Positions 3,242 through 62,880 of a stretch of DNA of 64,000 nt are shown piece by piece (position 1 is the stretch's first letter; each line of letters begins with the position of its first letter). Below the pieces are notes generated by a model. That model ran no database searches. It was not told the DNA's origin and saw nothing but the letters and a program-made list of their open reading frames with translations. This stretch comes from Haliotis asinina (lineage: Eukaryota > Mollusca > Gastropoda > Lepetellida > Haliotidae): positions 45,311,747-45,375,746 of the forward strand of contig NC_090292.1 in the NCBI RefSeq assembly GCF_037392515.1, read 5' to 3'. The position numbers were made by a program, and so were the translations under genes.

Positions 3242-3299
3242 GGCACCCGTGGCGAGCCACCTCCTCGTGGTGGGTGCTGGGTAATGCTAAGAGCTCGCC
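3242..3299 (+). ncRNA. HDV-like self-cleaving ribozyme at LINE 5' end (copy A)
   Basis: The first 58 nt fit the HDV-type double pseudoknot. P1: nt 1-7 (GGCACCC) pair with nt 31-37 (GGGTGCT), including a G1-U37 wobble. P2: nt 10-16 (GGCGAGC) pair with nt 52-58 (GCTCGCC), seven of seven. P3: ACC with GGT, closing a pyrimidine-rich TCCTCG loop. P1.1: loop C residues with G38-G39. The strand GCTAA at nt 45-49 supplies the presumed catalytic C46. P4 is absent, as in minimal members of this class. Cleavage would fall just before G1, the element's own first base. HDV-like ribozymes at LINE 5' ends are known in R2, RTE and L1Tc. The fold was done by eye and not tested. Confidence 0.8.
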
Positions 3300-3840
3300 G
3301 ACACCCCTGTAGTGGACCCGGGGGGGGGGGGGATATTTGGTCCACCAACCCGTTTGCCGTGGGTTGCGGCCCTGTGTCGGCGGAGGAAGGGATCCTGGTG
3401 CTTGAGGGCAATAGGGGCTTGCAAACGTGTTCCTGTTGCTTAATACACCACTTTCGCCCTGACTTCGCCTAGACGGGTGGTCGAAAGGGCCCGGTTCGAC
3501 CAATCGGCTGGTCATGCCAAGCCCTGTGCATTGTGTGTATATATCATTGCACATATTTTATTTGGATTTTTACTTTTGGTCTGGGCCTATTTGTTCATTG
3601 AGCTTTTCTGATTTTAAAATGCATTTTTGAAGTGTTGAACTTTTGCCTAGAGTCTTATACCCAGAATACGGTGGCTCATGGGCCAATCTGGTAGATCAAT
3701 TATTTCTAATTCTTCTGCTGGAGTATATCATCCGGGTATCCTTGGTGCTGCAAGGTGGAGGCCCACTTGCCTTTAGCATTGTCCTTGTGATACTCCGTCG
3801 TGGGTGGGGAGCTCGGATGATGAACCATATTACACTAACC

Positions 3841-7649: not shown

Positions 7650-8928
7650 ATGGCTTACGAAACCCCTGTCACCAAGAAAAAAACGTCCTCTTGACACAGA
7701 ACCTGATATTAATGAACTCAGACCCTCCACATTTATTGACCATTGGCCACGTTTCATAGTACTTGAGACCGTTGACAAGACACCCCTGAAGCTGAACCCT
7801 TTTGCCATTTCAAAAGGCATACAAGGCATAGCAGGAGATGTTAAAAACGTTAGATGTTTGCGTTCAGGGTCTCTTCTCATTGAATGCAGTAAGAGACAAC
7901 AGGCAACTAATCTCCTGTCAACTAAATCTTTTGTCGGCATTCCCGTATCAGTCTCTGCCCATCGAACACTTAACACCAGCAAAGGCATAGTGAGAGACCG
8001 AGACTGCCTTTTTGCTGATATGCTGGAGATTGATATCGCCTCAGAAATGAAGGAACAAGGTGTGTTATATGTAAAACGTTTCACTACCCGGAAAAACAAT
8101 GAGATCCAACAAACAAACACATATTTGTTCTCTTTTTCTACTCCGACTGCTCCCACATCAATAAAGGCTGGTTACTGTCAACTCAAAGTGGAAACGTACA
8201 TTCCAAATCCATTGAGATGCTTCAAGTGCCAAAAGTATGGGCATGGCGTAAATACTTGCACATTGTCTGTTGCGTGCGCTCATTGTGGTGAGAAAACACA
8301 CAGAACAGAAGATTGTGACAGTGATTTTAAAAAATGCACCAACTGCTCAGGTGAACATTCATCTTCATCGAAACAGTGACCAATCTGGAGAGAGCAAATG
8401 GAAATAAACAGAATAAAGTATACCCAAAACATCTCTTTTTCTGAAGCAAAAAAACGGGTGAAGAGATCTGATCTTCCAGAAAGTTATGCTACAGTAGCAA
8501 ACGCATCATCTGTGCGCAGCTCTAAAATAACAAAGTCATCTACAAGCTGCCAAACTACCTTGACTTGGGTCAACAGTGACTCTCCACAACTTCTATACCC
8601 AGCTATGTCATCACAGACTGAAGAATCACTTCCTGGAACATCAAAGTCTTCTTCTGATCATAAATCATCTTCGCAGTCACGCACTGAGTCTCAATCTACA
8701 ACTGATAGACAACAAACTGCTAAAGGTAAATCTAAGCCTAAGCCTGATGTTTCAAAACAACAAAGTGGCAGAGCTCCCCAGGGGTCACAAAATAAAGTTC
8801 AATTGTTTAATAAATACGGGTCTCTTGAAGACATGGACGTTTCTGAAAACGTCCATTCTAGGGCACATAGCTTGTCGCCCTCCAAAAGAGTGCGGGGTAG
8901 ATCCCCAATAAATCCCCCCAAAAGATAG
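7650..8928 (+). pseudogene. LINE copy B ORF1, near-complete with two breaks
   Basis: About 425 codons from the ATG at 7650. The product would have an N-terminal conserved region (HWPRF, KLNPF, GIQGIAGD), a central segment with RFTTRKNN and TYLFSFSTP, then three zinc knuckles: CFKCQKYGHGVNTC, CAHCGEKTHRTEDC and CTNCSGEHSSSSKQ. A Ser/Lys-rich tail ends in SPSKRVRGRSPINPPKR. Two lesions are seen: a one-base frame change in the A-run near 7680, and a TGA at 8377-8379 replacing the final Cys codon of knuckle three. Reading resumes in the same frame. ORF1 binds element RNA; this copy would need both lesions absent to work. Confidence 0.8.
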
Positions 8929-11640
8929 TTTATTCCAATAATATTGTACAGTGGAACTGAAGAGGATTGAGGACTAATTTACATGAATTACAGTTATTAG
9001 TCCAAGATTTCACACCTTCAGCGATATGTCTCCAAGGGACATATTTAAAGCAAACAGATACATTTGACCTTCGTCATTTTAATGCATATCATTCTTTTTC
9101 ACCTCCGGGTGATAGAGCTACTGGCGGGTCATCCGCTTTAGTCAGACAAAACGTTATTCAAAGCCCTGTTTCACATAATACTATATGCACGCTGTTGCAG
9201 TGAGAATTACCTTACACGTAGCGTTTACGCTATGCTCTCTTTACATTTCGCCGTCTTCGACGTTCACTAAAACTGATCTTCAAGCTCTATATGACCAACT
9301 CCCGAAGCCCTGTATTATAATGGGACATTTAAATGGGCACAACCCACTCTGGGGTAGTGTAAATACAAACACTAGAGGTAAATTATTGGAGGACTTTTGT
9401 TCTGACAATGACTTATGTATTTATAATGATGGTTCCAACACATATTTACACCCTGGTACAGGGACGTATTCTGCTCTCGACTTGTCATTGACAAATTCCG
9501 AACTATTAAATTAATTCGAATGGTCAGTCCACGATGACCTCTGTGGAAGTGACCATTTTCCTACTATATTAAAAGCTGTAACTCCATCTGATGTTCCTCC
9601 ATCATCAAGGCGGAATTTTAAGAAGGCTAACTGGGCTTTATATGAAACACTGTGTGCTGAAAAACTTAAACCCGAACGTTTTATTGACGTTCCTGATGCT
9701 ATCAAATCTTTTTCTGATGAACTGAATTCCATAGCTGATGAGTGTATACCAAATTCCTCTGCAGTTCCACACATAAGAAAACCATGGTTCAACGATGAGT
9801 GCAAACAAGCTAGGAAGGCAAGGAAAAAAGCAGAACATTATTTCCGTCGCCATCCTATGGTGCATAATTTCAATAAATTTAAGATTTTAAATGCTAAAGC
9901 ACGGCGTACTTTTAAACAGAACAAACGCCAATCTTGGCAAAATTATGTATCCAAAATAAAATCTCGGACACCCATGTCCAAGGTATGGAACATGGTCCAG
10001 AAAATCAAAGGTAAAGGTACTAAACCTACTGTCCATCATCTTAAACATGGAGATCAATTGCTTACTGATAAATCAGATATTGCTAATAAACTGGGTGAAA
10101 CCCTTGCTAAACACTCTTCCTCTTCTAATTATGTACCTAAACTTCAGCAATATCAAAAACAACAAGAAAAGAAAACTATTAATTTTCATTCTGATAATGG
10201 GGAAGATTATAATGAAACGTTTTCTATTCATGAACTCCATACTGCTCTTGATCAAGCTCATGACACTGCTACAGGAGCTGATAACATACATTATCAACTC
10301 CTGAAGCACTTACCAGAATCCTGCCTAGAAACGCTTCTCAATATTTTTGATGATATTTGGACATCGGGTAACTTTCCTCCGTCATGGCGTGATGCCATAG
10401 AAGTACCAATACCTAAACCTGGACGTGATCATAAGGATCCGTCCAATTATCGACCTATTTCACTAACTAGCTGTGTTTGCAAGACCATGGAACGCATGAT
10501 AAATAATCGACTTGTTTGGTACTTGGAAACAAATAATCTTATCACAGATATACAGTGTGGTTTCCGTAAAAACAGAAGTACTGTCGATCACTTAGTGCGA
10601 CTGGAATCATTTGTTAAAAACGCACTAATTAATAAACAGCATGCTGTGTCTATCTTTTTTGATCTTGAAAAAGCATATGACACAACCTGGAAACATGGTA
10701 TTTTGATTGATTTACATGACTTTGGTTTGCGTGGTCGTTTGCCGTAATTTATTGCCCACTTTTTAAATGACAGACAACTCCAGGTCCGTGTGGGTTCTAC
10801 CCTGTCTGATCATTACAATCAGGATCAGGGTGTTCCACAAGGCAGTATTTTATCTGTCACTCTTTTTAGCATCAAGATCAACAGTTTATCAAAAGTTTTA
10901 AACGATTCAATTGATGGATCGCTTTTCGTGGATGATTTTAATATTTCTTGCCGAGGTAAAAATATGCATACTATTGAACGGCAACTGCAGTTGTGTTTAA
11001 ACAAAATAAAAAAAATGGTGTCTTGAAAACGGCTTCAAATTTTCGAAGTCCAAAACCAATTGTATACATTTTTGCAGAACATATAAGCCACATAAGGACC
11101 CTGAACTATCTCTAGATGGCACTCCCATCAAAGTTGTAAAGGAGGCCAAGTTCTTGGGATTAATTTTTGACTCGCATTTAACGTTTCTACCACATATCAA
11201 ATCCCTCAAAACTAAATGCCTGAAGGCACTTGACTTGTTGAAAGTCGTTTCAAATTCTAAATGGGGAGGGGACCAAGCTACCCTCCTGCAACTTTATCGA
11301 TCACTGATCCGGTCAAAACTTGATTATGGCTCCATTGTATACGATGGAGCCTGTAAAAGCAACCTGAAACTTTTAGATTCTGTTCACCATCAAGGTCTAC
11401 GACTTTGTCTTGGCTCCTTTCCAACTTCACCTGTTGACAGCATGTACGTTGAGGCCGATGGGCCATCTCTTGAGTAGCGACGTATCAAATTAGCTTTACA
11501 GTATGTAACAAAATTATGTTCCAGTGAGTCAAACCCTGCATATAACTGTGTTTTCAGTCCTCTGTGTGAGGACTGATACAATATGAAATCTTCGCTTGTA
11601 CCGTCTCTTGGTTTAAGAATTAATGTAACTTTAAGTCTAC
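8912..11640 (+). pseudogene. LINE copy B ORF2 (endonuclease + RT), broken
   Basis: Endonuclease: the QWNC motif has Cys changed to a stop near 8958, then ICLQ, PPGDRATGGSS, NGHNPLWG and SDHFP follow. A frame change lies near 9180 and TAA stops near 9512 and 10746. RT: YRPISLTS, GFRKNRST, the A motif FFDLEKAYDTTW near 10660, the B motif GVPQGSILSVTLFS near 10830 and the C motif FVDDFN near 10925 are all present. Both catalytic regions are unchanged there. A frame change occurs in the A-run near 11010. The thumb is read to 11477, where a stop follows, and a short decayed piece reaches 11640. No RNase H. ORF2 would nick the target and copy the RNA; this copy cannot. Confidence 0.8.
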
Positions 11641-12033
11641 CAGGTTTTTAAACGTAGTTAATTCATGTTATTTTATTTTTGTCTGGCATTTTGTACACTC
11701 TCCAGCGGCTGAAGGGATGGTGTAAATCCAACTAGGGTGCATGCAGGTAGCAAAGGTACTGTAAGTCCTCATGGTCCCTTGTGGTGATCTACCGTCAACT
11801 GTTGGTGATCTATAGCCCGTGTTTTATATTGTATTGTCTGCTTTAATTACTAGAATGTTTTACTTTTCCGTGCTAGTTTTATACCCATGTCTGTGATACA
11901 GTAGTATTTTTACTGCCCATTATGACAGGTTTCATTCTTCAAAATGTTTTCATTTTTCTCAAATAAATTGTTTTCGTCCCGATACGGCTGGCATATTGGC
12001 TATGACGTTAGATTTATTTCATAATAACTCACA

Positions 12034-12812
12034 ACAAAGCAAGATGTACTGTAAGCAAGTATCTCTGATCAGAGTTCAGTTGTATTGGGGACAAAATCTT
12101 TGGCCTAACAATGGGTACTAGTTATATACCCCTCTTTGATCTTTTCAAATACAGTTGTGAAGGTGTATACAAACATAAAATTGAAAACAAGAAGCTTGTT
12201 AAAGAAGTTTAACTTTATTGATGATTTGACTTGGTTCAAATAGCCAGATCGATTTACCGAATACATCTGATAATGGTCAGACCAACCACTCCCTTCCATT
12301 GCTTTTTCACCCTGAGTAAGATTTATGTGGTTTCATGTCTCGACATATATTCAGAAACTAAGCCTGTGACAAACACCCATGAATGACATAAGATATGACT
12401 TTCTTATGACTTCCGATTTATGTGCAGTGATATTTTGCCAGCTCAAGCACTCAATTTCAAAAGTTGTGTACAGGATGTCGGCACGTGAAAGTCAGGGCAT
12501 CATCGTTTGTGTTTCGCATATCCACCAAATTCTGAACATGGGTTGCTTTATCTCAATAATGTTTTTGATTTTCGTATTTTCGTCTCTTGTAAACGTTATT
12601 TCAATTCTGATTTAAAGATAAGCAAATTTATATGACGATATGGTAGGTTTCAGGTTCGAGTCAGTAGTGTTGGAATAAAAAGACTGAATGACAGTTCGGC
12701 AAGAAAATTAGAAGGGTCTGACGGGCAAGGAGAAAGAAACCAAAGCAAAAATTACCGTACACACAAAATTACAAATGATGCTCAGATAATTCCAGATTGC
12801 ATCAGGGACTAC
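12034..12812. other. No gene recognised
   Basis: AT-rich sequence between LINE B and the PAN-like exon. No convincing ORF, repeat or transposon is seen; probably intron if the exon at 12876-13169 continues leftwards. Confidence 0.35.
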
Positions 12813-12875
12813 CTATTTCATACATGTGCTTATTGAGTACCCATTTAGGACAAACCTTTGGAAATGTTTACTTAC

Positions 12876-13169
12876 GTATGAGTGGCTCCGTGCAAGATTG
12901 ACATGTCCTTCCTTCTTCTCGATCGTTGATTCATCTGTTGATAAACAGCAGGTTAAAGTCTCAACATCATAGTCAATATTCACACATTGACCATGTTCAG
13001 CACATTTAAGCTGACACAGCTTGATACCAATGTTCTTGATAACATAACCGTCCCTATCCGTCTTCTTAGGTGTACACTGCTTCGTACGTCCTGTTGAAAT
13101 CGCACACATCAGCAAAACCGTTAATGTAAGGAGTAGTTTCACACGGTCGCTGATATACCTCGGTGTCAT
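12876..13169 (-). CDS. First coding exon of a secreted or membrane protein, PAN/apple-like
   Basis: The exon encodes exactly 98 residues from the ATG at 13169 to a strong donor (AC|GTAAGT) whose GT is at 12874-12875, so it ends in phase 0. Residues 11-27 form a hydrophobic signal peptide (KLLLTLTVLLMCAISTG). The mature part has six Cys within about 45 residues (CTPKK, LCQLKCAEHGQC, DVETLTCCLS). This spacing, with the Asn-Ile-Asp-Tyr stretch between them, resembles PAN/apple modules that bind protein or carbohydrate outside the cell. Without the splice, the frame runs on for 20 residues into intron. Further exons must lie to the left on the minus strand. Domain naming is by pattern only. Confidence 0.7.
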
Positions 13170-14365
13170 GTCCGAGAGCTATTGAAATCACCTCCCGTGA
13201 GATGATTCACGACTACCACGAGGTTCAAGGATCACGGTCAATGCAAAGACTATTTTCACGAAAGTCTGGAGGCTATCACCAAGTAGATATTGAACCCAAA
13301 GTTATGAACGCATATGTCTACAGACTACCACCTGATACACAGTGAGCCAAAACAATTGAACACCTATCTCTAGAAGCTACCACCGGGTAGACAGTCAGAC
13401 AGTCAGTACAAGAAACCTGGCTTCAAGTATACGGCAAACACAAGAACACAGAAGGCTGCAACGATTGTCATGAATATGCAGAGAGTATGAGTCAGTTGTT
13501 CTTCTCAACCAAAGGGCTTCTCAACACCTGATTGGTCACACAAGACGGTATCGATGTGCTGCACAACGAAATATCAACATAATGACATCATTTGTTTCAG
13601 TAGGGTCTCCCAAGAGGAAAAGTAATAACATGTCAAAGTACGGTCTCTTTTCAGAGATATTGATTTATTTATTGGGTAGTGTTCTCATCAGGATAAAGAC
13701 AACGGATATTTTCAGTATCTGTTGGGGTCATATCCAGATTCCGATGCAAATTAGAGAGGTGATATGCACATTTTAGGGACTACTTTCACACTGTAAACAC
13801 AGATGGCGTCACGCACATCTATCGGCGGTCGTGTCCAGAACGACGGCCGTGGTCACGGAACTGTGAGTGCTTTGATGAGGGAAAATTGTTGTCTCGTAAT
13901 CATAGTTGGGACTGATTACCAGCACCGAAATGCAGGTGTCTTGCAATCATTGACTCAGACATCAGCCAGTAAAATTTCGAATGATCTGTTTGACACTTTT
14001 TCGCGAACAGTATACTTGTTGTTGAAAAGTTTAATTGAACTTTTCCCAAATTCCACACGTGTTTTTTTGTCATTTTTCAAATTAAGTTAATATTTGTTGA
14101 CAACAATACGCTGACTGGGAACTGTATGATGTAACGCAGTCAAATGAGTGATGAGTAGAAAACCACGTCACCGAGTTTGTAACGTCACATATTACTACGC
14201 ACATATTTATAACGTCATATATATGCGGGCACATCTCAGGAAGTTTAGTGCATGATCTGTGGCAAATCTGTTTTAAATTTTAAAGTAAGAATGACATTGT
14301 ATGATACATAGGTTATCACTCTCGTGTCTTTTGTGATGGTTAATATCCTGCATTGGGAATAAACA
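13170..14365. other. No gene recognised; presumed promoter and upstream flank of the PAN-like exon
   Basis: Between 13211 and 13385 there are four weak copies of a (G/A)CTACCAC motif spaced 51-60 bp apart. Nothing else is supported. Confidence 0.3.
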
Positions 14366-16110: not shown

Positions 16111-16749
16111 GATCAGCCTGTAGACATATTTTTTTGTCATTTCTACCTCAACTAAAATCCATAAGAGACATGATGGATATAGCAAAGTTCAACATCACTG
16201 CTCCCCAACCGCCACCGAGTGTCACAAAGGACAGCGTTTCATTGCTACGGAAATCCGGCATGCAAAAACTAGGGATACAGCGGTGTTATATTCCGATAAA
16301 TGTGACGAAAAATAGCTATATTTGCTTACCAAATATAATGTTACGCTGGTTCCGGCCTTAACAAAAACGTAGAGACATACAGAATTTAGAGGTTGACATC
16401 AATGGATTGGCCCATGAGCCACCGCCTTTTGGCATAGGACTCTAGACAATTTAATATATGCATAATCTTTACATTTCAAATCAAAAGGACCTATACCCAA
16501 TAAGTTAAATGTGCAAAAATAAATTCTATGCACACGGCATGGCATGACCAGCCGATTGATAAAACTGGACAAGTTCTACCACCCGTCTAGGTGAAGTGAG
16601 GGCCAAAGTTGTGGGTTAGGCAACAGGAACAAGGTTCCAGGTCCCATTTGCCCTCAACCATCAGGATCCCTTCCTCCACCGACACAGGGCCGCAACCAGC
16701 CGCAAACGGGTTGGTGGACCAAACATTCTCCCGGGTCCACAATGGGGAT

Positions 16750-16807
16750 GCACGGCTCCTAGCATTACCCAGCACCCACCACGAGGAGGTGGCCGGTCAC
16801 GGGTGCC
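16750..16807 (-). ncRNA. HDV-like ribozyme, copy C
   Basis: It starts GGCACCC, with the complementary GGGTGCT strand at nt 31-37. GCTAG replaces GCTAA at the catalytic strand. P2 keeps five of seven pairs; at position 13/55 it has C-G where copy A has G-C, and at 14/54 G-C where copy A has A-U. Two P2 mismatches suggest decay after insertion. Confidence 0.6.
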
Positions 16808-22104: not shown

Positions 22105-22380
22105 ATAAATGCTTGAAGGTACTTGACTCATTGAAAGTAGTTTCTCATTCACATTGGGGAGGGGCCGAGCTATGAGGATTTATATACTACGAAATCTCCC
22201 CTGTTCTATGTCGCCCTTGACATGTTCATGGTCGTACCATGGATGCCTTTGAGTCAAAGTCAGAGGCATGTCGGAGTTATCCCATTATGTCTTTTAAGGT
22301 AGGCTGTTTGTGCAAGGAAGAGCATCCACAGACAAGATGTTCGGCAGTCTCTGTAAATTAGTTGCAAACACGACATTTCA
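22105..22380 (+). mobile_element. Small LINE-derived mosaic, first copy
   Basis: AAATGCTTGAAGGTACTTGA and TTGGGGAGGGG match the ORF2 thumb region, which then jumps to the GAGGATTTATAT segment before the RNase H. The flanking GGCATGTCGGAGTTA...CAGTCTCTGTA segment has a relative at 26265-26340, next to a similar LINE piece. This suggests one composite unit duplicated. Confidence 0.5.
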
Positions 22381-22394
22381 TATTGATTAGTGCG

Positions 22395-25861: not shown

Positions 25862-26165
25862 TCTATGCACAGAGCTTGGCATGACCAGCCGATTGGTTGA
25901 ATGGGGCCCATTCAACCACCCGTCTAGGTGAAGTAAGAGCCGAAGTGGTGTGTAAGGCAAATGCAACATGGTTAACGGCCCAGATGCCCTCAACCACTAG
26001 GATAACTCCCTCCACCGGCACGGGACGCAACCCACGGCAAACAAGTTGCCCAATTCGGCCGTTCCTTGCGACCACCAGTGCGGTGCTATGGACCTTGCTG
26101 ACCTGGGTCCACACTTTTAGTATTGCCAAGCACCCACCACGAGAAGGTGGCTCGCCACGGGTGCC
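25862..26165 (-). mobile_element. Isolated LINE 5' end (copy H) with ribozyme remnant
   Basis: On the minus strand it starts GGCACCCGTGGCGAGCC at 26165 and keeps P1 and P3 of the ribozyme. The downstream P2 strand and catalytic strand have decayed (CTAAAAGTG). About 300 bp of 5' UTR follow, then the match stops. No ORF1 or ORF2 is attached. Confidence 0.75.
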
Positions 26166-26264
26166 TTCATATTGATCTTTTCTTAGAATCATGTTCTGGC
26201 GATTCCGAGCGGGAAGTGATTGGTCCTGAGCAGCAAAAAGGAAGCTCCCAATTTGACATTTGAT

Positions 26265-31240: not shown

Positions 31241-31540
31241 ACCATACACGTAGATGTGTCTCATAGGCTCACATGTAGGTAGACATAGTGTAAAATGTTT
31301 GATAACAGCTGTGTACAATGTAGCAGTGAGAAATCCCCATTTGCCCAGCTGGCCTGTCATCCTACCGGATCTGTTTCCTGAAGCACATAGCAGAGTGAAA
31401 CCATTGCCAGGAAAGCAGGGTTACATTTACTGGAATAGCATCATCAATCTGCATCACCGCTTGATCCACATAACCGCCGCCTGACCGATTGCTGTCTGAC
31501 GTTCTGCATAACTGTTTCTCACTCTCTGTGTAAATCAGCA

Positions 31541-32804
31541 CCAGTGGTGGGTGCTGGGTAATGCTAAGTGCTCGCCAACCCCCCGTGTGGATCCGTGGGC
31601 ATATTTGGTCCACCAACCCGTTTGCCGTGGGTTCCGTCCCTGTGTCAGTGGAGGAGGGGATCCTGGTTGTTGGGGGCATAGGAGTAGGACCATTGCTCCT
31701 ATTGCTCAACAAACCACTTTGGCCCTGACTTCACCTAGACAAGTGGTTGAATGGACTTGGTTCAACTAATCGGCTGGCCATGCCAAGCCCTGTCCATGGA
31801 TTTTATGTAAATGCACAAAATTTGATTTGGAATTATTTACTTAGCCACGCTTTCTTGTGCTGGAAGCAAAGGGTGGTCGTGCTCTTTTTTCCCATTCACA
31901 GTGGCTTTTAGAAAAGGGTCTACAAGGTAAAGCCGGTGTCTTGAAAGACGTTACAAAAAAACGCTCTGGAGGCCTTTCCGTTGAATGTACCAGGAAATTA
32001 AAAAAGACATTAATCTCATGCCTTCAACCAAATTATCAGACATTCCAATTACTTGTTCTGCACATAAAACCCTTAATTCCTCTAAGAGTCTCCTTCGTGA
32101 TAAAGAACAAAGCCCCGCTGATGAATCAATTGAAGGAAATCTGGTCATGATGGGAAGATGTGCACTAACACCATTAAGTGCTTACATTGCAAAGGCGATC
32201 ACATGGCATCATCAAAAGACTGTCTCATGTGGAAATATGAAGCCAGGGTGCAGAAACTGAAACATGAGAAACGAATCAGTTACTCTGAAGCCAGACAACA
32301 AGCCCGATTACTTATACCTGAAAATGCTGAACATTCATCTTATACTTCAGCAGCCAAAAAGGTGACCACGTCTGTTCCTTCTCAAACTGATTTGACTTGG
32401 GTCACATCAGAACATCCAACACCCCTTTCTGAAAGCAGACCCAGATTCAAAACAGCCGTCATTAAAACCAACAGGATCAACATCTTCTACACAATCAGAA
32501 TCCCATCAAATCAAATGGGATGGAAGTGTACCAAAGTAGATATTAAGAAAAAGCAGAGTCAGTCAGATAGATTGCCGAAGGCACTAAAAGACACTGTGCT
32601 ACTTCATAATAAATATGGATTGCTTGAAGATATGGTACAATGGAATTGCAGAGGACATAAACATAACTTTCATGAAGTACAGCTGTTAGTACAAGACTTT
32701 AAACCCTCAGCACTGTGTCTCCAAAAGACGTATCTGAAACATACTGATACATTTGATTAAAGGCAGTATTGTTCTTATCATTCATCTCCTACTCCTCGGC
32801 ATAA
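31541..32804 (+). mobile_element. LINE copy J, interrupted by copy K
   Basis: It starts inside the ribozyme sequence (P3 onwards; GGGTGCTGGGTAATGCTAAG kept) and has a shortened 5' UTR and a strongly deleted ORF1 (31860-32640). The endonuclease start (MVQWNCRG, LQLLVQDFKPSALCLQ near 32640-32730) breaks off in the PPG region at 32804, where copy K begins with an intact family terminus. Continuation of J beyond K was not found. Confidence 0.75.
31900..32640 (+). pseudogene. LINE copy J ORF1 remnant
   Basis: Pieces in different frames: SLLRDKEQSPADESI (central region), one zinc-knuckle stretch CLHCKGDHMASSKDCLMW near 32180, then KHEKRISYSEARQQARLL and VPSQTDLTWVTSEHPTPL. The final LLEDM sits close to the endonuclease start. 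At least two deletions; not functional. Confidence 0.65.
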
Positions 32805-32862
32805 GGCACCCGTGGCGAGCCACCTCCTCGTGGTGGGTGCTGGGTAACGCTAAGTGCTCGCC
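32805..32862 (+). ncRNA. HDV-like ribozyme, copy K
   Basis: All helices are as in copy A, with full P1 and P2 and the catalytic GCTAA strand; T44 is C. Of the copies here, A, K and M look best preserved. Confidence 0.8.
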
Positions 32863-33369
32863 GATCACCCGTTGTGGACCCGGGGGCATATTTGGTCCAC
32901 CAACCCGTTTGCCGTGGGTTGCGGCCCTGTGTCAGTGGAGGAGGGGATCCTGGTGGTTGAGGGGATCCTGCTGGAACCGTGTCCCTGTTGGCCCCTAGAC
33001 GAGTGGTTGAATGGGCCCGGTTCAACTAATCAGCTGGTTATGTCGAGCCCTGTGCATTACTTGTATTTGCACAACTTATATGTTGCTAATTTTAGGCCTC
33101 GACTCTTTTGGTCTCTCAAACATTACTTGATTTGAAATTTGCCGTAATTAATTTGCTTAGAGTCTAAATGCCCAGAAGGCTATGGCCAATCTGATGGGAT
33201 CTCATGGGCCAATCTGATGGGATCTATCTTTTTAAGATATTTTCCTGCTCGAGTATACCCTCCTAGTATCATTGACGCCATGTGCTGGAGACACGCAGAT
33301 ATGAAGCATCGTCCCTGTTGACACTCCATGGGTCGGGAGCAAGGAGGGTGAATCATATATATTTCAATC

Positions 33370-34650
33370 ATGGCACCCCCAATTACAAAACGTACACACG
33401 AATTTGATGATTCGTTGTCTTCTGAGGATGAAGATCAAACAACTTTCACCAACTCCAATAATTGGCCTCGATTCCTTGCGATGTGTGTACCTGATGGTGG
33501 TACTTGCAAGTTGAATTCCTTTGCTGTATCAAAGGGCATGGAAGGTTTAGCTGGAGAAGTGAAAAAATCAAAAAGTTGTGATCTGGTTCCCTTCTTATCG
33601 AGTGCAGGAAAGAAATCCAGTCAAAGATTCTAAGAGCAACCAAGTCTTTAGCTAATGTTCCTGTAGAAGTGACCCCTCACATGACATTAAATCACAGCAA
33701 AGGCATCGTTCGTGATAATGGACGTAGTCTTTCAGACATGAGTGAAGGTTACATTGTCACAGAATTACATTCTCAAGGCGTTACTCATGTCAAACGCTTG
33801 CTAAAAAAAATAATGAAAATATCCAAACAAACACATACCTCTTCACAGTTTGTCTGCCAGAACACCCACAATCGCTGAAAGCAGGTTATTGGTAGACTAA
33901 GGGTTGATACTTTTATCACCAATTCATTAAGATGCTATTTTTGCCAGAAATATGGTCACGGATCTAAGAAGTGCAACAATCCAGCTGCATGCCAAAAGTA
34001 TGCTGGACCATGCGAAGACAGTAGCCTGTGCAATAAAACACCTGTTTGTGTAAACTGCTCGGGTTGTCATCCATCTTCATCCAAGGAATGTCCTTCCTGG
34101 AAGTTGCAGTCGAAAATTTCGGGAGTAAAACTTGAGCGAAACGTGTCATTTATTTCTTTGAGGCAAAACAGATTGTTCTTTCACAAGAACAATCATGTCC
34201 CTCTTACGCTACCACTGTTTTTCCTTCGGCTCATGTCTCTCAATCCAAATATGTTTCATGTACTTCCGTAGGTTGTCAAACGGACTATACGTGGGCTAGA
34301 ACATCGGCTCCTACATTGCTATCTGCAGAAGTTCAAGCGACACCTACTAAGGTTACTTCCAGTGCACAAACAATGTCTTCACAAACAATAATTCAGGTAA
34401 GTCAAGATACATCTGCATCTCAAAAGCAACCATCTAAATCATCAGACATTAATGCAAACCAAACTGTGATAACAAAAAGAACCAGAGCAACAGAGCCCCA
34501 ATGGGGTCGAATAACCAGGTCCAACTTTTTAATAAGTTTGGATCTCTTGAGGACATGAATGTGTCCGACCATACTCATTGTAGAACAAATAGCTTGTCGC
34601 CCTGAAGGAAGGTGAGGGGTAGATCACCTGTTCATCCTCCAAAGAAATAA
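33370..34650 (+). pseudogene. LINE copy K ORF1 (second subfamily), broken
   Basis: Starts MAPPITKRTHEFDDSLSSED, the N-terminus shared with copies M and Q. WPRF, KLNSFAVSKGMEGLAGEV and the SKGIVRD/MSEGYIV region follow. Zinc knuckles near 33930-34100 include CYFCQKYGHGSKKC and CVNCSGCHPSSSKECPSW. Frame changes occur near 33620, 33800-33880 and 34150. The stop overlaps the ORF2 start as TAATG at 34648-34652. Confidence 0.75.
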
Positions 34651-34894
34651 TGTCTTCACCAATTACCCAGTGGAACTGTAGAGGACTTAGGACCAATTCA
34701 AATGATTTACAGTTATTGGTCCAATATTTTAAGCCATCAGCGTTTTGCATTCAAGAAAATTATCTGAAGCAGACAGATCATTTTGACCTACATCAGTTTA
34801 ATGCTTATTCCTTTTCCCCTCCTGGTGATAGAGCTTCAGGTGGATCATCTATCCTGGTGAGAAATAATGTTGCCCACAGCTCAATTCCTCTTAA
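34650..34894 (+). pseudogene. LINE copy K ORF2, first segment (endonuclease)
   Basis: Open from ATG 34650 with ITQWNCRGLRTNSNDLQLL, FCIQENYLKQ and GDRASGGSSILVRNN. The frame is cut at 34894 by an inserted minus-strand LINE. Its continuation at 51672-52062 is described separately. Confidence 0.75.
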
Positions 34895-35732
34895 GTGAGT
34901 GAGTGAGTTAATATGTAACGTCAAATCGGCAATATCTCAGCCATATCGTGACGAGAACATTTAATACTGAAATCAAATATATGTACAGTAAAAGCCTGGC
35001 AACCACGGACAGTAAAACAACTAGAATATGACAAATGGGATTAAAACTAGCGTGGAAAGTTCAAACTTATATCACTATTCGGACAATACAATATAAAATC
35101 AGGCCATAGATTGCCAACAACTGAAGGTAGATCACCATGCTAGGGACCATGGGGACTTACAGTGCCTTTATTACCGGCATGGACCCTAGTTGGATTTACA
35201 TCGTCCCCTCAGCTGTTAGCAATTTAGACACATCTAGCCACAAATTGAAAATACACATACGCTACCACTAAAAACAATGGAAACTCAAAATTTACTGTAA
35301 TGTTTATGGACTTATGTCCCTTCTCAGGAGGACAATAATTTTACGGTACTTCAACCTCCTTCGAGGATACAGCCACTAACAAGCAGTTACGAAATTAAAC
35401 TTCCAATAATATAAATACATCTATCTGCAGAACACATCATTCAAAACTCAACCAAAAAATCAATTTGTTTTACAAAAACAATAATTAAATGAGAAAAACA
35501 CGTTTGTAAAAAGATCCTTAACGGTTTTGACATTGAAATATTGATCCCTTGTGATGGGGAATTCAACACAGTCGTGCAGAATAAGCTTGACCGTGACTCT
35601 CTCATCACAAGAGATACAAAATGGAGGATCCTCACCTTTTAACAGGTACGCATGAGTATATCTAGTGTGGCCAATTCGACATCGTCGTAGAATAACATCT
35701 TCAAATCTGGACTGACAACCCAAGTAGGTATA
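34895..35732 (-). mobile_element. LINE copy P/L, 3' end (RNase H C-terminus and 3' UTR)
   Basis: Minus strand. The tail (ACTC repeats) abuts copy K at 34895. The 3' UTR with the hairpin runs to about 35440 and the RNase H C-terminal region from 35441 to 35732 (CQSRFEDVILRRCRIGHTRY, LLKGEDPPFCISCDERVTVK). The frame is cut at 35732 by copy M and resumes at 41789. Confidence 0.8.
35718..35732 (+). repeat. Target-site duplication of copy M, left
   Basis: ACCCAAGTAGGTATA, identical to 41789-41803. Confidence 0.9.
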
Positions 35733-35790
35733 GGCACCCGTGAATGGCCACCTCCTCGTGGTGGGTGCTGGGTAACGCTAAGAGCCGTTC
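35733..35790 (+). ncRNA. HDV-like ribozyme with covarying P2, copy M
   Basis: P1, P3, P1.1 and the catalytic GCTAA are as in copy A. P2 is GAATGGC (nt 10-16) with GCCGTTC (nt 52-58). Four successive pairs differ from copy A yet still pair: 11/57 A-U for G-C, 12/56 A-U for C-G, 13/55 U-G for G-C, 14/54 G-C for A-U. This is strong support for the helix. Confidence 0.85.
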
Positions 35791-36322
35791 ACCCCCGTAG
35801 TGGACCCGGGGGGATATTTGGTCCACCAACCCGTTTCCCGTGGCTTGCGGCCCTGTGTCGGTGGAGAAAGGGATCCTGGTGGTTGAGGGCATGGGAGCAG
35901 GACCATTGTTCCTATTGCTCAACACACCACATTGGCCCTGACTTCACCTAGACGGGTGGTTGAATGGGCCCGGTTCAACCAATCGGCTGGTCACGCCAAG
36001 CCCTGTGCGTGGATTATCTCTGTAATTGCACAGCTTTGATTTGGAATTGTCTCAATGTTTGTCTTGGCCCATTGTGTTCTTTAAACACTTATAGATTTTG
36101 AAATATGATCGAATGAACTTTGCCTAGAGTCTTATGCCCAGAAGGCGGTGGCTCATGGGCCAATCTGGTAGGATTTATCTTTTCTAGATTTTTCCTGCTT
36201 GAGTATACCCTCCTAGTATCCTTGGTGCCGTCTGCTGGAGATCCACTGACATTAGACATCGTCCTTGTTGACACTCCATGGTGGGTGGGGAGCTAGGAGG
36301 GTGAATCATATATATGTACACT

Positions 36323-37602
36323 ATGCCACCCCCACTTAAAAAACGCTCTTACGAGTCAGATGATTCGGTCTCATCTGAGGATGAGACTCCTGCTGCTCCG
36401 ATCAATACTGACAACTGGCCTCGATTTCTCGTCATGACTTCACCCGAAGGTGGTCCTATAAAGCTGAATCTGTTCGCGATAGCTAAGGGCATTGAAGGTT
36501 TGGCTGGCGAAGTAAAAGAAGTGAAAAAGCTACGATCTGGTTCTCTGTTGATCCACTGCAGGAAACAGATCCAATCTCAGGTTCTCCTTTCCACAAAATT
36601 GTTGGCCAATGTTCCCGTTGAGGTGTTTCCTCACAGGACATTGAATTGCAGTAAAGGCATCATACGTGATATCGGACGTTGCCTTTCCGATATGACCGAA
36701 ACTGACATTCTTAGGGAATTGCGCACCCAAGGAGTTACCGATGGCAAACGTTTTACCGTTAGAAAGAATGATGCTGTTACCAAAACTAACACCTATCTCG
36801 TCACATTCTGTCTTCCGACACACCCAGTCACTGAAAGCGGGGTATTGCAACTTAAGGGTGGATGCATTTATCCCTAATCCCTTAAGATGTTACACCTGTC
36901 AAAAGTAGGGTCATGGATCTAGATCGTGCCAAAATACAGCTGCTTGTTGTCGTTGTGCTGGAACATGTGACAAACCTTCTAACTGTGTGAACTGTTCTGG
37001 TTGTCATCCTTCTTCCTCAAAAGATTGTCCTACTTGGAAATTACAAGCAAAAATATCTAAATTGAAGCATGAACGGAATATTTCCTTCCCAGAAGCGAAG
37101 AAGATCATTCTTGCACAAGAACAGTCGGGTCCATTGTACTCTACCACTGTTTCTACATCTATCCAGGCTCCAAAACCAAAACTTGTATCCGTACGTTGCC
37201 AGACAGAGTACACATGGGCAAAGACTTCTGCTCCAACGTTGCTGTCAACCGAAGTAAAAGCGACGCCCCAACAAATGAGCTCCAGTTCACAAACTTTAAC
37301 GGTATCACAAAGCATTAGTCAGTCTAAGACATCCAAGATCGATCCGCCGGCATCACAGAAACATTCTTCAAAATCAGAGGCAATTTTAAAACCAACGTCT
37401 AAAAACAAACCTAACAGTGAAACACACAAAAAGAATCATAGGGACAGAGCCCCAAAAGGGACTAACAACCCGATCCAAATCTTCAATAAGTTTGAACCCC
37501 TGACGACATGGATGTGTCCGAGCAAAGCCATGGTAGGACACATAGCTTGTCGCCTTCAAGGAAGGTGAGGGGTAGATCACCAGTCCATCCTCCAGAGACA
37601 TA
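36323..37602 (+). pseudogene. LINE copy M ORF1, broken
   Basis: Begins MPPPLKKRSYESDDSVSSED. The conserved N-terminal region (WPRFLV, IKLNLFAIAKGIEGLAGEVK) and RDIGRCLSDMTETDI segment are open to about 36865, where a frame change occurs. A TAG follows inside the first knuckle near 36906. Knuckles two and three (CCRCAGTC, CVNCSGCHPSSSKDCPTW) are read after that, then a Ser/Lys-rich part. A last frame change lies near 37500. RNA-binding role by family; this copy is dead. Confidence 0.8.
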
Positions 37603-37604
37603 AT

Positions 37605-40600
37605 ATCCTCAAACATAATAGAGGACTGAGGTCTAATTTAGCTGATTTACAGGTACTCGTCCAAGATTTTAAGCCGTCAGCTTTCTGCATACAAGAAACC
37701 CATCTGAAGGAGACAGATCATTTTGATCTTCGTCAGTTCAATGCATATCACTGTTTTTCTCCTCCAGGTGATAGAGCGTCTGGTGGATCATCAATCCTGG
37801 TGAGGAACAATGTTATTCATAGCTCAGTTCCACTTAAAACAAACCTCCAAGCCATTGCAGTTCGACTTACCTTACAAGTTGCTTTTACTTTATGCTCTTT
37901 GTACATTCCACCATCATCAGCGGTTTACTTACCTGATCTGCAAGCTCTTTATGATCAACTACCTAAACCCTGTGTAATCATGGGGGATTTAAATGGCCAC
38001 AACCCACTCTAGGGCGGTACTAATACAAACACCAAAGGTAAATTACTGGAGGATTTTATTTCAAATAACGATTTGTGCATTTATAATGACGGATCACAGA
38101 CATACCTACATCCTGGAACAGGAACATATTCGGCCCTTGATTTGTCTATTACTGACTCTAACCTATTCAATGAATTCGAGTGGTCTGTCCATGAAGATCT
38201 CTGTGGAAGTGACCATTTCCCCACAATACTGAAACCCGTGAATCCCTCTGATGTCCCTCCATCATCACGATGGAATTTTAAAAAGGCTAACTGGCCTTTA
38301 TATGCAGTTCTCTGCGCTGACAAGCTCAGACCGGAACTTTTTCATGATATTCCTGATGCCATAAAACGTTTTTCAGATGAGCTAAATAACATAGCTGACG
38401 AATGTATCCCTAAGTCCTCAGCAGTTCCTCACGTTCGAAAACCATGGTTTAACGATGATTGCAAACACGCTAGGAAGGCACGGAAGAAAGCTGAGCATTA
38501 TTTCCGTCGCCATCCTATGGTCCACAATTTAGACAAACTAAACATTCTGAATGCTAAGGCAAGTCGTACTTTCAAACAAAGTAAACGCCACTCTTGGCAA
38601 CAATATGTATCAGAAATTAATTCACGCACGCCGATATCCAAGATGTGGAATATGATACAAAAGATGAAGGGTAAGGGATCTAAATCTACCATCCACCATC
38701 TAAAAGATGGGAACATATTGTTAACTGATAAATCTGATATTGCAAATAAACTTGGTGAGACGTTGGCCAAACATTCTTCCTCATCCAATTACTTTCCTGA
38801 ATTCCAAAAATATCAAAAACAGCAAGAAAAGAAATCTATTAATTTCAATTCAGATAATGGGGAAGACTACAATGAAACATTTTCGATGTATGAACTTCAC
38901 ACTGCTCTTGACCAAGCTCCTGATACTGCTTCTGGAGCTGATGGTATCCATTATCAACTCCTGAAACACTTGCCAGGCTCGTGTTTAGAGACACTCTTAT
39001 ATATTTTTGACACCATCTGGACAAGTGGAAATTTCCTTTCATCATGGCGTGATGCAATAATAGTTCCCATCCCTAAACCTGGACGTGATCATACTGATCC
39101 TTCCAATTATAGGCCCATTTCACTAACTAGCTGTGTTTGCAAGACCATGGAACGCATGATAAATAATCGACTTGTTTGGTACTTGGAGACCAATAATCTA
39201 ATAACAGATATACAATGTGGTTTCCGTAAAAACAGAAGTACTATCGATCATTTAGTGCGTTTAGAATCCTTCGTTAAAAATGCCATAATTAATAAACAAC
39301 ATGCTGTGTCTATTTTTTTCAATCTAGAAAAAGCATACGACACGACATGCAAACATGGGATTTTAAAAGATTTACATGACTTTGGATTACGAGGTCGTTT
39401 ACCTCAATTTATATCCAACTTCTTAAATGAGAGACAATTTCAAGTACGCGAGGGTTCAACCCTGTCTGATCATTACAATCAGGATCAGGCAGTATTTTGT
39501 CTGTAACACTTTTTAGCATTAAGATCAACAGTTTGTCCAAGGTTTTAAATGATTCAATCGATGGATCGCGTTTCGTGGATGATTTTAATATTTCTTGTCG
39601 CGGTAAAAATATGCATACTATTGAACGGCAACTACAGTTGTGTTTACACAAAATAAATAAATGGTGTCTCGAAAATGGATTTAAATTTTCTCAGTCAAAA
39701 ACTAATTGTCTACACTTTTGTAGAAAATATCAGCCACATAAGGACCCAGAACTCTTTTTAAATGGCACTCCCATCAAAGTGGTCAAGGAGGCCAAGTTCT
39801 TGGGTATAATTTTCGACTCCTATTTAACTTTTCTTCCGCACATTATATATCTAAAAAATAAATGCTTGAAGGCTCTGGATTTACTAAAAGTTGTTTCCAA
39901 TTCAAAATGGGGAGGTGATCAAGCTACCCTCCTTCACCTATACAGATCAGTGGTCCGCTCCAAGCTTGATTATGGGTCCATCGTATATGGGGGAGCCTGT
40001 AAAAGTAACTTAAGACTACTGGATTCTGTCCACCACCAAGGACTTAGACTTTGTCTCGGATCCTTTAGAACTTCTCCTGTGGACAGTCTTTACGTCGAGG
40101 CTGATGAACCATCTCTTTCACAACGCCGTATAAAATTATCCGTCCAATATATTACAAAACCTTTTTTCTAATAAGTCTAACCCTGCTTTTAACTGTGTCT
40201 TTAATCCCCGCTATGAGGATTTATATGCTAAGAAATCTTCTCTTGTTCCACCTCTTGGGGATAGAGTTAAACCATTCCTTTCTGGTGCTGGCTTTGACCT
40301 GGAGACTATCTCTCCTTCGCGTTTGCTTTCTTCTCCTCCTTGGCAACTAGTGCGGCCACAAGTTGATTTAACTCTTACACAGTTTAAGAAGTCAGAAACT
40401 AATGAATTACAATATAAACACGAATATAATAACTTAAAGCATAAATATAGCAATTACAAACCCATATTTACAGACGGGTCCAAGGATGGTGGCGCGGTAG
40501 CTTGTGCCACTGTCATTGGATCCAGAACAATATCTTCTAGATTACCAGATTGCAGCTCTATTTTCACAGCTGAAGCAAACGCCATAGTAACGGCTCTTAA

Positions 40601-41261
40601 ATATGTTCAAAGACACCCCAAACATAAACAGTATATAATCTATTCAGACTCTCTTTCTTGCCTTCAGGCTATTAAAAATATTTCTTGCAAACATCCACTT
40701 TTAATTGAAATTATTGAATTGCATAATGATCTTGCTACTGGCCAATACGACATCGTCTTTTGCTGGTTACCCAGTCACGTAGGCATTTCTGGTAACACAG
40801 TGGCTGACCTTGCTGCCAAAGCAGCACTCAACAAATCTGTGACACCACTTCTTATTCCATACACCGATTATAAAGCTACTATTAAATCTTATATCCGTGA
40901 ACTGATGCAGAAGAAGTGGGACACCCAAGTGGATATTAATAAATTATATGCAATAAAACCGTATATTGGTTATACCTACTTGGGATGTCAGTCCAGATAT
41001 GAAGAGGTCATCATTCGGCGATGTCGTATTGGCCATACGAGATATACTCATAAATACTTATTGAAAGGTGAGGATCCTCCATTCTGCATCCCTTGTGATG
41101 AAATAATCACAGTCAAGCATGTCTTGCTTGACTGTGTCGAATATTCCATCACAAGGGATAAATATTTCAAATCACCAACTATGAAGGATCTTTTTAGTAA
41201 CATAACTTCTCGTTTAATTCTTGCATTTTTAAAAGAATTAGATTTGATATCAGACTTGTAA
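37605..41261 (+). pseudogene. LINE copy M ORF2 (endonuclease, RT, RNase H), broken
   Basis: The start is damaged: a small deletion removes the QWNC motif. Endonuclease: IQETHLKETD, DRASGGSSILVRNN, GDLNGHNPL then a TAG at about 38011, LHPGTGTYS and SDHFP. RT: YRPISLTS, GFRKNRST, C motif FVDDFN near 39575. In the A motif the usual FFDLEKAYD reads FFNLEKAYD, losing a catalytic Asp. A deletion near 39489 removes the B-motif start. A frame change lies near 40165. RNase H (about 40470-40850) is open with FTDGSKDGG, TAEANAI, YSDSLS and PSHVGISGNTVADLAAKAA. A C-terminal Cys/His region (CRIGHTRYTH, CIPCDE) follows. Confidence 0.85.
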
Positions 41262-41788
41262 ATAGATAAATATTTTATGTTTGGAGGTTTAGATTGATAA
41301 CTAAGATTGTTAGTGGCTGTATCCTCGAGGGGGGTTAAGGTACTGTAAAATTATTGTCCTCCTGAGAGGGTACGTAGGTCCACAAACATTCAAAGTAAAT
41401 TCAAACTCTCTGCTATTTTAATCATTGTATATTTGTTATTTTAAATGCATGGCTAGATCTGTCTAAATTGCTATCGACTGAGGGGATGGTGTAATTCCAG
41501 CTAGGGTCCATGCAGGTAGCAAAAGTAATGTAAGTCCCCATGGTCCTTAGCATGGTGATCTACCTTCAGTTGTTGGCAGTCTATAGCCCATTTTTACATT
41601 GTATTTAAAATGTTTTAGATTTAATCACTAATCTTAAATGGATGTCTGTGATATATACTAGTGGTTTTACTGTTCTTCGTCAACAGGGTTTTAATTTCTT
41701 ACATTCATTCATTTTACAATGTCATTATTTGTTCTCGTCACGATATGGCTGCAATATTGCCGATGTGACGATAAATATGAACTCACTC

Positions 41789-41979
41789 ACCCAAGTAGGT
41801 ATAACCAATGTAAGGTTTTATCCCATATAATTTATTGATACCCACTTGGGTGTCCCACTTCTTTTGCATCAGATCACGGATATAAGACCTACCGGTGGCT
41901 TTGTAATCACTATAAGGAATCACTATAAGAAGTGGTGTCATAGACAATTCTCCAAAGAACTTTCCGGAACTGCTACCAC
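41789..41979 (-). mobile_element. LINE copy P/L, middle segment
   Basis: The minus strand continues the RNase H frame cut at 35732: IPYSDYKATGRSYIRDLMQK and KWDTQVGINKLYGIKPYIGY. It starts with the right-hand duplicate of the M target site (41789-41803). About 35 bp at 41945-41979 do not match the LINE and look like filler next to copy Q. Confidence 0.75.
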
Positions 41980-42534
41980 CGAGTGAGTGAGTGAGTGAGT
42001 TAATATTTACCGTCACATCGGCAGTATCTCAGCCATATCGTGACCAGAACACTACAAAAAAACATGGTATATATCAATAATACTTGAAACAATCTAAAGC
42101 CTGTTGAGAAAGAACAGCAAAACCACTAGTATATCACAGACATTCATTTAAAACTAGTAATGATATCTAAAACAGTTTAATTACTGAGAACACTACAATA
42201 TAAAAACGGGCTATAGATTGCCAACAACTGAAGGTAGATCACCATACTAGGGACCATGGGGACTTACAGTACTTTTGCTACCTGCATGGACCCTAACTGG
42301 ATTTACATCATCCCTTCAGCCGTTAGCAGTTTTGTCATATCTAGCCATATATTAAAACTACATCTATGCTACGAGTAAAACAGTGGAGTGCTTTAATTTA
42401 CTTCGAATGTTATGGGACTTACGTATCCTCCCGGGAGGACAATAATTTTACTGTACTTTAACCCCCCTTGAGGATACTGCCACTAACAATGTCAGTTACT
42501 AATTGAAACGTCCAGTCGTAAAATATTTATCTAT

Positions 42535-45500: not shown

Positions 45501-46135
45501 TCAGAAGGGGTTACAGGTGTTAGAACTGTAGGAAAGTGATCACTTCCACAAAGGTCGTCATGGATGGACCATTCAAATTCATTCAGGAGGATTGAGTTAG
45601 TGACAGATAAATCAAGACTGGAATAAGTACCATTCCCAGGATGTAGATAAGTGTGAGAACCATCGTTATAGATGCATAAATCATTATTTGAAATGAACTC
45701 TTCAAGTAACCTTCCTTTATTACTTGTATGCACACTACCCCATAGTGGGTTATGACCATTGAGATCACCCATAATGTTGCAGGGCTTTGGAAGTTGGTCG
45801 TAGATTGCTTGAAGATCAGTTAATTGAAGCAATGATGTTGGGGGAATGTAAAGAGAGCACAAAGTAAAAACAATGTGCAGAGTTATTCTAACTGCAACAG
45901 CCTGAAGATTGGTATGAAGTAAAATTGAAGATCCACCTGTAGCTTTAGTCCCTGGTGGGGAGAAGGAATTGTAGGTACTGTACTGACGTAAATCAAAGTT
46001 ATCAGTTTCTTTAAGGTAAGTCTCCTGCAGACATATTGCTGATGGCTTATAATCTTGTATCAATAAATGCAAATCATTGAGATTGGTCCTAAGACCTCTG
46101 CAATTCCATTGAATAATTGAACTAGAAACGCTCAT
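42535..46135 (-). pseudogene. LINE copy Q ORF2, broken
   Basis: The endonuclease is open for 254 codons from ATG 46135 (IIQWNCRGLRTNLNDLHLL, AICLQETYLKETD, GDLNGHNPLWG, SDHFP), then a stop near 45371. RT: YLPISLTN, GFRKNRST, A motif FFDLEKAYDTTW, B motif GVPQGSILSVTF near 44260, then a frame change. C motif FVDDFN is read near 44185. RNase H is present in pieces (FTDGSKDGG near 43290) with internal deletion. The C-terminal Cys/His region is read at 42816-42535. Confidence 0.8.
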
Positions 46136-47229: not shown

Positions 47230-47773
47230 GGTGGTATTGAATATGATTCACCCTCCTAGCTCCCCACCCACCACGGAGTGTTAACGAGGACAATGACTAC
47301 TGTATGCGGGTCTCCAGCACACAGCACCAAGGATACTAGGAGGGTATACGCAAGCAGGAAAATATCCCAAAAAGATAAATCCTACCAGATTGGCCCATGA
47401 GCCATCGCCTTCTGGGCATGTAAGACTCTGGGCAAATTATAATATGACATTTTTCTACTCAAGTAATGTTTGACAAATAAAAAGAGTCGAAGCCTAAATG
47501 TAACAATACAGTTCATTCAAAATATAAGTTTTTGTGCAATTACAAGTAATGTATAGGGCTCGACGTGACCAGCTGATTGGTTGAACCGGGCCCATTCAAC
47601 CACCCGTCTAGGTGAAGTCAGGGCCGAAGTGGTGTATTAGGCAACAGGAACACGGTTGCAGACCCCTATTGCCCTCAACCACCAGGATCCCTTCCTCCAC
47701 CGACACAGGGCCGCAACCCACGGCAAACGGGTTGGTGGACCAAATATGCCCCCGTGTCTACAACGGGGGTGTC

Positions 47774-47831
47774 GGCGAGCACTTAAAGTAACCCAGCACC
47801 CACCACGAGGAGGTGGCTCGCCACGGGTGCC
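47774..47831 (-). ncRNA. HDV-like ribozyme, copy Q, catalytic strand mutated
   Basis: P1, P2 and P3 are intact. The GCTAA strand reads TTTAA, so the presumed catalytic C46 is lost; self-cleavage is not expected. Confidence 0.7.
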
Positions 47832-47839
47832 ATTTTTTT

Positions 47840-49979: not shown

Positions 49980-49993
49980 CTACTCCATACCTT

Positions 49994-51072: not shown

Positions 51073-51671
51073 GATTGGTGTCATATGGTTCATCATCCGA
51101 GCTCCCCACCCACCACGGAGTATCACAAGGACAATGCTAAAGCAAGCGGGCCTCCAGCTTGCAGCACCAAGGATACCCGGATGATATACTCCAGTAGAAG
51201 AATTATAAATAATTAGTCTACCAGATTGGCCCATGAGCCTTCGCCTTCTGGCATAAGGCACTAGGCAAAGTTCAAAGCAACATAATTTAACATCAAACAT
51301 GTTTTAGACATTAAAGCCAAGACCAAAATCAATCAATCAAAATCACTTCCAAATCATACTTGTGCAACGATAAATAAATATATAATCTATGCACAGGGCT
51401 TGGCATTACCAGCCAATTGGTTGAACCGGGCCCATTCAACCTCCCGTCTAGGTGAAGTAACGGTCGAAGGGATTTGTTGAGCAAAGGGAACACGATTACA
51501 GGCCTCCAGTCCCCTCAAGCCCCAGACTCCCGTTCTCCACTGACACAGGCCCGCAACCCATGGGAAACGGGTTGGTGGACCAAATATGCCCCCGGATCCA
51601 CAACGGGGTGTTGGAGAGCACTTAGCATTGCCCAGCACCCACCACGAGGAGGTGGCTCGCCACGGGTGAGA

Positions 51672-62866: not shown

Positions 62867-62880
62867 TGACCTGGTCCAGG

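Follow-up and report, generated by a model that had tools for sequence, protein, structure and literature searches.

A P4-less HDV-like ribozyme fold at the 5′ end of a LINE family in Haliotis asinina

The 5′ end of a LINE family in the gastropod Haliotis asinina is very probably an HDV-like ribozyme lacking P4, predicted to self-cleave before the first base of the element (G1) and to free the full-length element RNA. The ribozyme reading, drawn from sequence comparison, is well supported, with activity as its predicted part. We analysed a 64,000-nucleotide stretch of contig NC_090292.1 (referred to here as the window), in which the fold was first noticed at positions 3242 to 3299, together with further copies of the element from the rest of the genome. 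The analysis places a ribozyme fold precisely at the point where insertions begin in a LINE family that is large and seems to have been active recently, and it lends support to the idea that 5′ ends of the HDV-like type occur widely in LINEs other than R2 and RTE.

The LINE and the fold of its 5′ end

The LINE copy at 35733..41788 (plus strand) comprises a 5′ end, an ORF1 region, ORF2 and a 3′ (TCAC)n tail, its reading frames being broken. Pieces of its ORF2, at 38013..41261 (plus strand), encode an endonuclease (PF14529), a reverse transcriptase (RT; PF00078) and an RNase H (PF00075). Sequence aligning to this copy makes up 46% of the window, and the earlier description of the family as dominant is therefore fair. 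In one of 12 copies fetched from the rest of the genome, ORF1 (434 aa) and ORF2 (1230 aa) are both uninterrupted between stop codons, and this ORF2 carries endonuclease, RT and RNase H domains. With these domains in ORF2, target-site duplications (TSDs) and a 3′ tail, the element is a LINE, and its placement in the I/Nimb clade is plausible. A search for protein homologues (E 0.001) returned 352 sequences, and among the 120 listed the best match of full ORF2 length had 59% identity; in a sequence search of solved structures, human L1 ORF2p was the best match and R2 was weaker.

Alignments further indicated that the LINE insertions in the region 32805-52056 are nested. The plus-strand copy beginning at 32805 appears to be interrupted by a minus-strand copy beginning at 51670, which in turn seems to contain the copies beginning at 47831 (minus strand) and 35733 (plus strand); the last of these sits within an older copy on the minus strand and has a duplication of 15 bp. 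The window also holds an LTR retrotransposon at 57398-62890 (minus strand), with gag, protease, RT-RNase H, integrase and chromodomain in three long frames, as identified with Pfam.

The opening 58 nt of one LINE copy, at 3242..3299 (plus strand), fit the HDV double pseudoknot on inspection of the sequence. The original prediction had proposed this fold, which is supported by the helix register, by matches to Rfam model RF02682 and by covariation in P2. The pairing register was set by the HDV scheme. In HDV, a purine-led P1 with a G1-U37 wobble follows right after the cut. P1 of the LINE pairs element bases 1-7 with 31-37 (3242-3248/3272-3278) and includes the G1-U37 wobble, P2 pairs bases 10-16 with 52-58 (3251-3257/3293-3299), and P3 pairs bases 18-20 with 28-30 (3259-3261/3269-3271), all on the plus strand, as are the remaining parts. 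L3 spans the 7 nt of bases 21-27 (3262-3268) and reads TCCTCGT (UCCUCGU in RNA) in all three intact copies of the window, in agreement with the TCCTCG noted earlier. P1.1 consists of C22-G39 and C23-G38 (3263-3264/3279-3280). The predicted catalytic C is C46 (3287), situated in J4/2 within the GCUAA motif formed by G45-C-T-A-A49. J1/2 measures 2 nt, and P4 is absent from the register, as had been stated. Right after the ribozyme, at 3312-3366 and the equivalent positions of other copies, GTGGACC...GGTCCAC and CAACCC...GGGTTG inverted repeats were seen by eye.

Seven LINE copies in the window reach base 1, three of them (3242, 32805 and 35733) being intact in their helices and in C46 and four being damaged. 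The second intact copy, at 32805..32862 (plus strand; register and RF02682), likewise begins at element base 1, and the third, at 35733..35792 (plus strand; register and RF02682), has another P2 sequence (GTGAATGGC/GCCGTTCAC, nine pairs). The damaged copies, all on the minus strand and recognized by the register, lie at 16747..16807 (also matched by RF02682; two mismatches in P2), 26105..26165 (P2 and P1.1 pairs broken), 47771..47831 (predicted catalytic C changed to T) and 51610..51670 (bases 1-2 changed from GG to CT, with loss of the two outer P1 pairs). By-eye comparison with locus L041 indicated that copy 26165 is without the stretch carrying the P2 3′ strand. A clean fit had been claimed for four copies, designated A, K, M and Q, letters that could not be mapped to coordinates with certainty; it holds for the three intact copies, and if Q is copy 51670 the outer P1 pairs are lost there. 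A partial ribozyme-model match of 43 bases (31537..31579, plus strand; 40.4 bits) belongs to another LINE copy, which aligned by blastn only from element base 26 onward.

Covariation in P2, constancy of the core and mutants in P1

The 1.14-Gb genome was searched with three query copies, yielding 1,739, 1,758 and 1,647 first-look candidates, of which the best 40 each were scored. The window and loci L006-L048 together gave 53 rows of 61 nt (33 distinct), in which L006 and L036 repeat window copies and the pairs L010/L011 and L027/L028 have common flanks. An alignment of 43 distinct rows (alignment A4) was composed of these 33 and ten more from 20 further copies, leaving out the rearranged L076 and nine rows identical to others. 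The genome loci are best matches to window copies, a choice that favours intact ones.

Among the seven window copies, 93.2% of the pair cells were paired, and four of the seven P2 pairs had both partners altered in one copy or more. The 43-row alignment had 97.0% of its 860 cells paired (P1, P2, P3 and P1.1), compared with 29.7-44.4% when the partners were slid. Two-sided changes occurred in 66 cells, all in P2, where four pairs showed change on both sides; the shuffle mean was 26.4, and none of 500 shuffles was as high. Common descent links the rows, so these cells cannot be counted as separate events. Neither the tally of pairs changed on both sides nor that of pair types exceeded the shuffles (417 and 422 of 500 as high, respectively), and the covariation support therefore lies in the cells, the percentage and the score. 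P2 was found in the versions GAACGGC/GCCGTTC, GGCGAGC/GCTCGCC, GAAGAGC/GCTCTTC and GGCAAGC/GCTTGCC, each with a matching 3′ strand, and these four would require at least three changes of state.

P1, P3 and P1.1 showed no two-sided change in the 43 rows, and their support is constancy. The predicted wobble was present, pair 1-37 being G-U in 36 of the 43 distinct rows, G-C in three, A-U in one and unpaired in three. The columns of L3 were invariant or at least 90% conserved in these rows. C46, the predicted catalytic C of the GCUAA motif, was kept in 51 of the 53 rows (49 of 51 places, L006 and L036 being repeats) and in 19 of the 20 further copies. Identity among the seven window copies reached 94% in bases 1-9 and 91% in bases 17-49, the highest values of the first 580 bases, with 85% in bases 101-150, 76% in bases 251-300 and 42-50% in bases 301-400. 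The ribozyme core is thus the most conserved block of the first 580 bases, though not the sole one. In the commonest type among the loci fetched around copy 35733 (L007, L012 and others), bases 45-50 read GCTGAG, and in the window copies mostly GCTAAG, which indicates that the base two past the predicted catalytic C varies between subfamilies.

Genome-wide change in P1 and P2 without compensation had been named at the outset as grounds for doubting the fold. Change in P2 proved to be strongly compensated; P1 barely varied, and 34 of 40 selected sites were uncompensated. These 40 sites were taken from at least 40 in the genome with a base other than T at position 34, and because they were selected for mutation they were left out of the pair counts. 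In the 34, adenine at base 4 (A4) was kept while base 34 had changed, so that this P1 pair was broken, giving 15 A-A, 14 A-C and five A-G mismatches; the 5′ end was otherwise recognizable in most of them. One further site was C-C. T4 was found at five sites, four with unrelated 5′ sequence and one (L096) with a true T-A swap in P1, which has G instead of C at position 46. C46 was kept in 35 of the 40 copies. The uncompensated sites limit the case for the ribozyme. Copies mismatched in P1 exist, and perhaps they spread. L083, L084, L087 and L088, which look like a small subfamily, have in common the P2 3′ end GCCGTTCAAA and all carry A34 (an A-A mismatch in P1), and two of the four are also without C46. 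A search pattern requiring three altered P1 bases together found no site in the genome.

P1 is wholly element-encoded and free to covary. Within this one genome P2 has diversified into four or more compensated versions, and P1, in the copies sampled, has not, which raises the idea, rather doubtful at present, that P1 (GGCACCC/GGGTGCT) is fixed for a second purpose beyond pairing. Such an extra role of the first bases may be promoter function, protein binding or second-strand priming at the joining of the cDNA 5′ end. The four P2 versions, the mutants in P1 and C46 and the 1,647-1,758 first-look candidates that each query returned make the family a natural mutant series, which could test which ribozyme features decide the spread of LINE copies.

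The insertion boundary and the proposed processing of element RNA

TSDs of 11-15 bp adjoin G1 in nine of 17 ribozyme-bearing copies examined, namely two of five window copies tested (35733 and 26165) and seven of the 12 fetched from the rest of the genome. The insertion end in these copies is therefore the predicted end of the cleavage product, and the proposal that base 1 is both is supported. By flank comparison, the left TSD of copy 35733 (ACCCAAGTAGGTATA; 35718..35732, plus strand) lies immediately before base 1 and has its right copy at 41789..41803 (plus strand), the first bases of the left one possibly overlapping the right-side tail. Copy 26165 has a TSD (ATCAATATGAA; 26166..26176, minus strand) immediately before base 1 and the right copy past its 3′ tail at 22377..22387 (minus strand), again by flank comparison. 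A scripted TSD search found no clean duplication at copies 3242, 47831 and 51670; at the last of these, an imperfect duplication (13 bases, two of them different) was seen by eye. The TSDs of the seven fetched copies are perfect, measure 11-13 bp and stand next to G1 and after the (TCAC)n tail, some of them including a few bases that possibly belong to the tail. Three other fetched copies had no TSD, and one 7-base match and one repeated flank beside another copy were uncounted. The boundary evidence in this LINE family is unusually good.

An Rfam scan of the window returned no family at the gathering score. RF02682, RF00094 and RF01787 reached 25.1, 22.8 and 16 bits against gathering scores of 44, 50 and 37 bits. 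At a lax threshold, four of the 11 matches listed were to RF02682 (the HDV ribozyme from F. prausnitzii), at 30.2, 26.3, 25.1 and 24.2 bits; each of these lies at a LINE 5′ end and begins at element base 1 (four of the seven copies), and the highest score in the window belongs to copy 35733. RF00094 and drz-agam-1 gave weaker matches at the same stretch as RF02682. The search with HDV-class covariance models, suggested with the original prediction, thus placed four copies exactly from base 1 and left all of them under the gathering score. Whole-window E-values of the Rfam matches ranged from 0.12 to 2.9, so the Rfam model is not decisive by itself and gains its weight by coinciding with the insertion boundary. 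In RNAfold the 58-60 nt gave unremarkable nested-fold energies (z-scores of -0.81, -1.19 and -0.26), a weakness that is expected because the pseudoknot is invisible to the program. For the GGCGAG type, the nested RNAfold prediction has the P2 5′ strand paired with L3 in a trapping hairpin.

Transcription of the element need not begin at its own first base and may start upstream or in a neighbouring gene. RNA started upstream would fold co-transcriptionally into the double pseudoknot and cut itself immediately before G1, yielding a full-length element RNA that begins with a 5′ hydroxyl and is stably folded at that end. In the HDV class, the 2′-hydroxyl of the base before G1 attacks, aided by a catalytic C of the C46 type and Mg2+, and cleavage of the LINE RNA would be expected to depend on C46. 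The freed RNA would then serve for translation, and target-primed reverse transcription would copy it all the way to G1, the base at which new insertions would accordingly begin.

The fold might instead be real and kept for a role other than cutting, with transcription starting at G1 from an internal promoter and the structure protecting the 5′ end, helping translation to start or binding the proteins of the element. One R2 study leans towards the view that template use is raised by the ribozyme structure as such (PMC11331408), and this alternative is also consistent with the presence of some P1-mismatched copies as insertions and with the other conserved block of the 5′ UTR, at bases 101-150. 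We nevertheless consider it unlikely, as C46 and the L3/P1.1 core are kept in the way that catalysis requires, and an external ribozyme model begins on the very base at which insertions begin. It is very unlikely that the ribozyme is a relic, formerly active and now mostly carried by dead copies: four of the seven window copies are damaged, but one identical intact 61-mer is common to 16 of the 53 rows, with flanks that differ except in the pair L027/L028 (best-match loci, a non-random sample), and the fetched copies include the one with both ORFs open and the seven with perfect TSDs.

An HDV descriptor, hand-written after the copies had been seen, had no matches in the window beyond the three intact copies; it also gave one match in eight of 20 shuffled windows and is therefore weak by itself. 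With the start fixed at the position given independently by the TSDs, it matched 27, 20 and 16 per 400,000 composition-matched random sequences. That a GC-rich 5′ UTR resembles the HDV fold by chance, as the matches of this loose descriptor in shuffled windows might suggest, is extremely improbable in view of the fixed-start frequency, the P2 covariation and the conservation of the core.

Known systems and relatives outside the genome

The present LINE is very probably a further example of the HDV-like 5′ ribozymes known in R2, R4, Dong, RTE, baggins and L1Tc; baggins belongs to the LOA clade. R2 of fly, silkmoth and zebra finch resembles the present LINE in having a double pseudoknot at the 5′ end, together with CCUCCUCGUGG, which is the most conserved stretch of fly R2 and is also found in zebra finch R2 (PMC5035012), and the R2 ribozymes of five silkmoth species are likewise without P4 (PMC3774820). 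The fly R2 ribozyme cuts exactly at the element 5′ end, those of most species studied cut 9-36 nt upstream, in rRNA, and in one silkmoth R2 a U replacing the C abolishes cleavage (PMC3774820). R2 differs in residing in 28S rDNA and being co-transcribed with rRNA, whereas copies of the present LINE are dispersed, and in silkmoth its J1/2 is 216-498 nt long (PMC3774820), in contrast to 2 nt here.

The ribozymes of R4, Dong, baggins, L1Tc and RTE cleave at the element 5′ end (PMC3774820), and RTE, R4, Dong and baggins are likened to the present LINE by this description. The Pr77 ribozyme of L1Tc, in the ingi clade, is also likened by description: the LINE whose 5′ end it forms encodes endonuclease, RT and RNase H, although the host is a trypanosome and the 77-nt signature doubles as a promoter (PMC4035085). 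With this case already published, the suggestion that a ribozyme on an RNase H-bearing LINE may be new is weaker than stated. A literature search, mostly without subscription papers, had no mollusc, Nimb, I-clade or RNase H case among the matches listed, and the available portion of a report describing mollusc R2 makes no mention of a mollusc ribozyme (PMC5035012). Minimal drz ribozymes without P4 are described in phages (PMC10879173). The minimal drz ribozymes share the absence of P4 with the present core, which scores best with RF02682, the F. prausnitzii HDV model. The drz, theta and F. prausnitzii ribozymes differ in their metagenomic, bacterial and phage settings, theta acting in tRNA processing.

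DNA relatives of the LINE in prokaryote assemblies were found on four contigs, three of them in Solemya symbiont assemblies, where the LINE sequence is presumably host DNA; this distribution gives a hint of mollusc hosts. Scaffold 3 of the Solemya velum symbiont (L002) contains, at approximately 7950-14090, a LINE ORF2 match of complete length accompanied by a (CATTC)n tail; this is probably host DNA that became attached to the bacterial symbiont sequence during assembly. Its 5′ UTR matches the LINE from about base 105 on; no ribozyme was detected in L002, where the 5′ end is without a TSD anchor (no TSD longer than 8 bases found). A divergent fold in HDV order in L002 was dropped, since L032 has its CGTAAGAGGCGACTAA module past the ribozyme on the downstream side and a different short repeat contains the module too; a search of three assemblies for this type of CGTAAGAGGCGACTAA fold found a single place. 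Two DNA patterns and one protein-alignment scan found no relatives in viral_contigs, nor did tblastn with one LINE homologue in a phage collection. We also observed a dispersed short repeat (GACCCGTGAAGGTCCCGGGGTAGAATAG...TGCTTGTCGTAAGAGGCGACTAACGGGATCG) at L007:1210-1340, L034:420-560, L054 and L056 (minus strand). Its second module is also present in the LINE 5′ UTR of L032 and of the Solemya L002, and by its sequence the repeat looks like a SINE with 5′ UTR modules common to LINEs.
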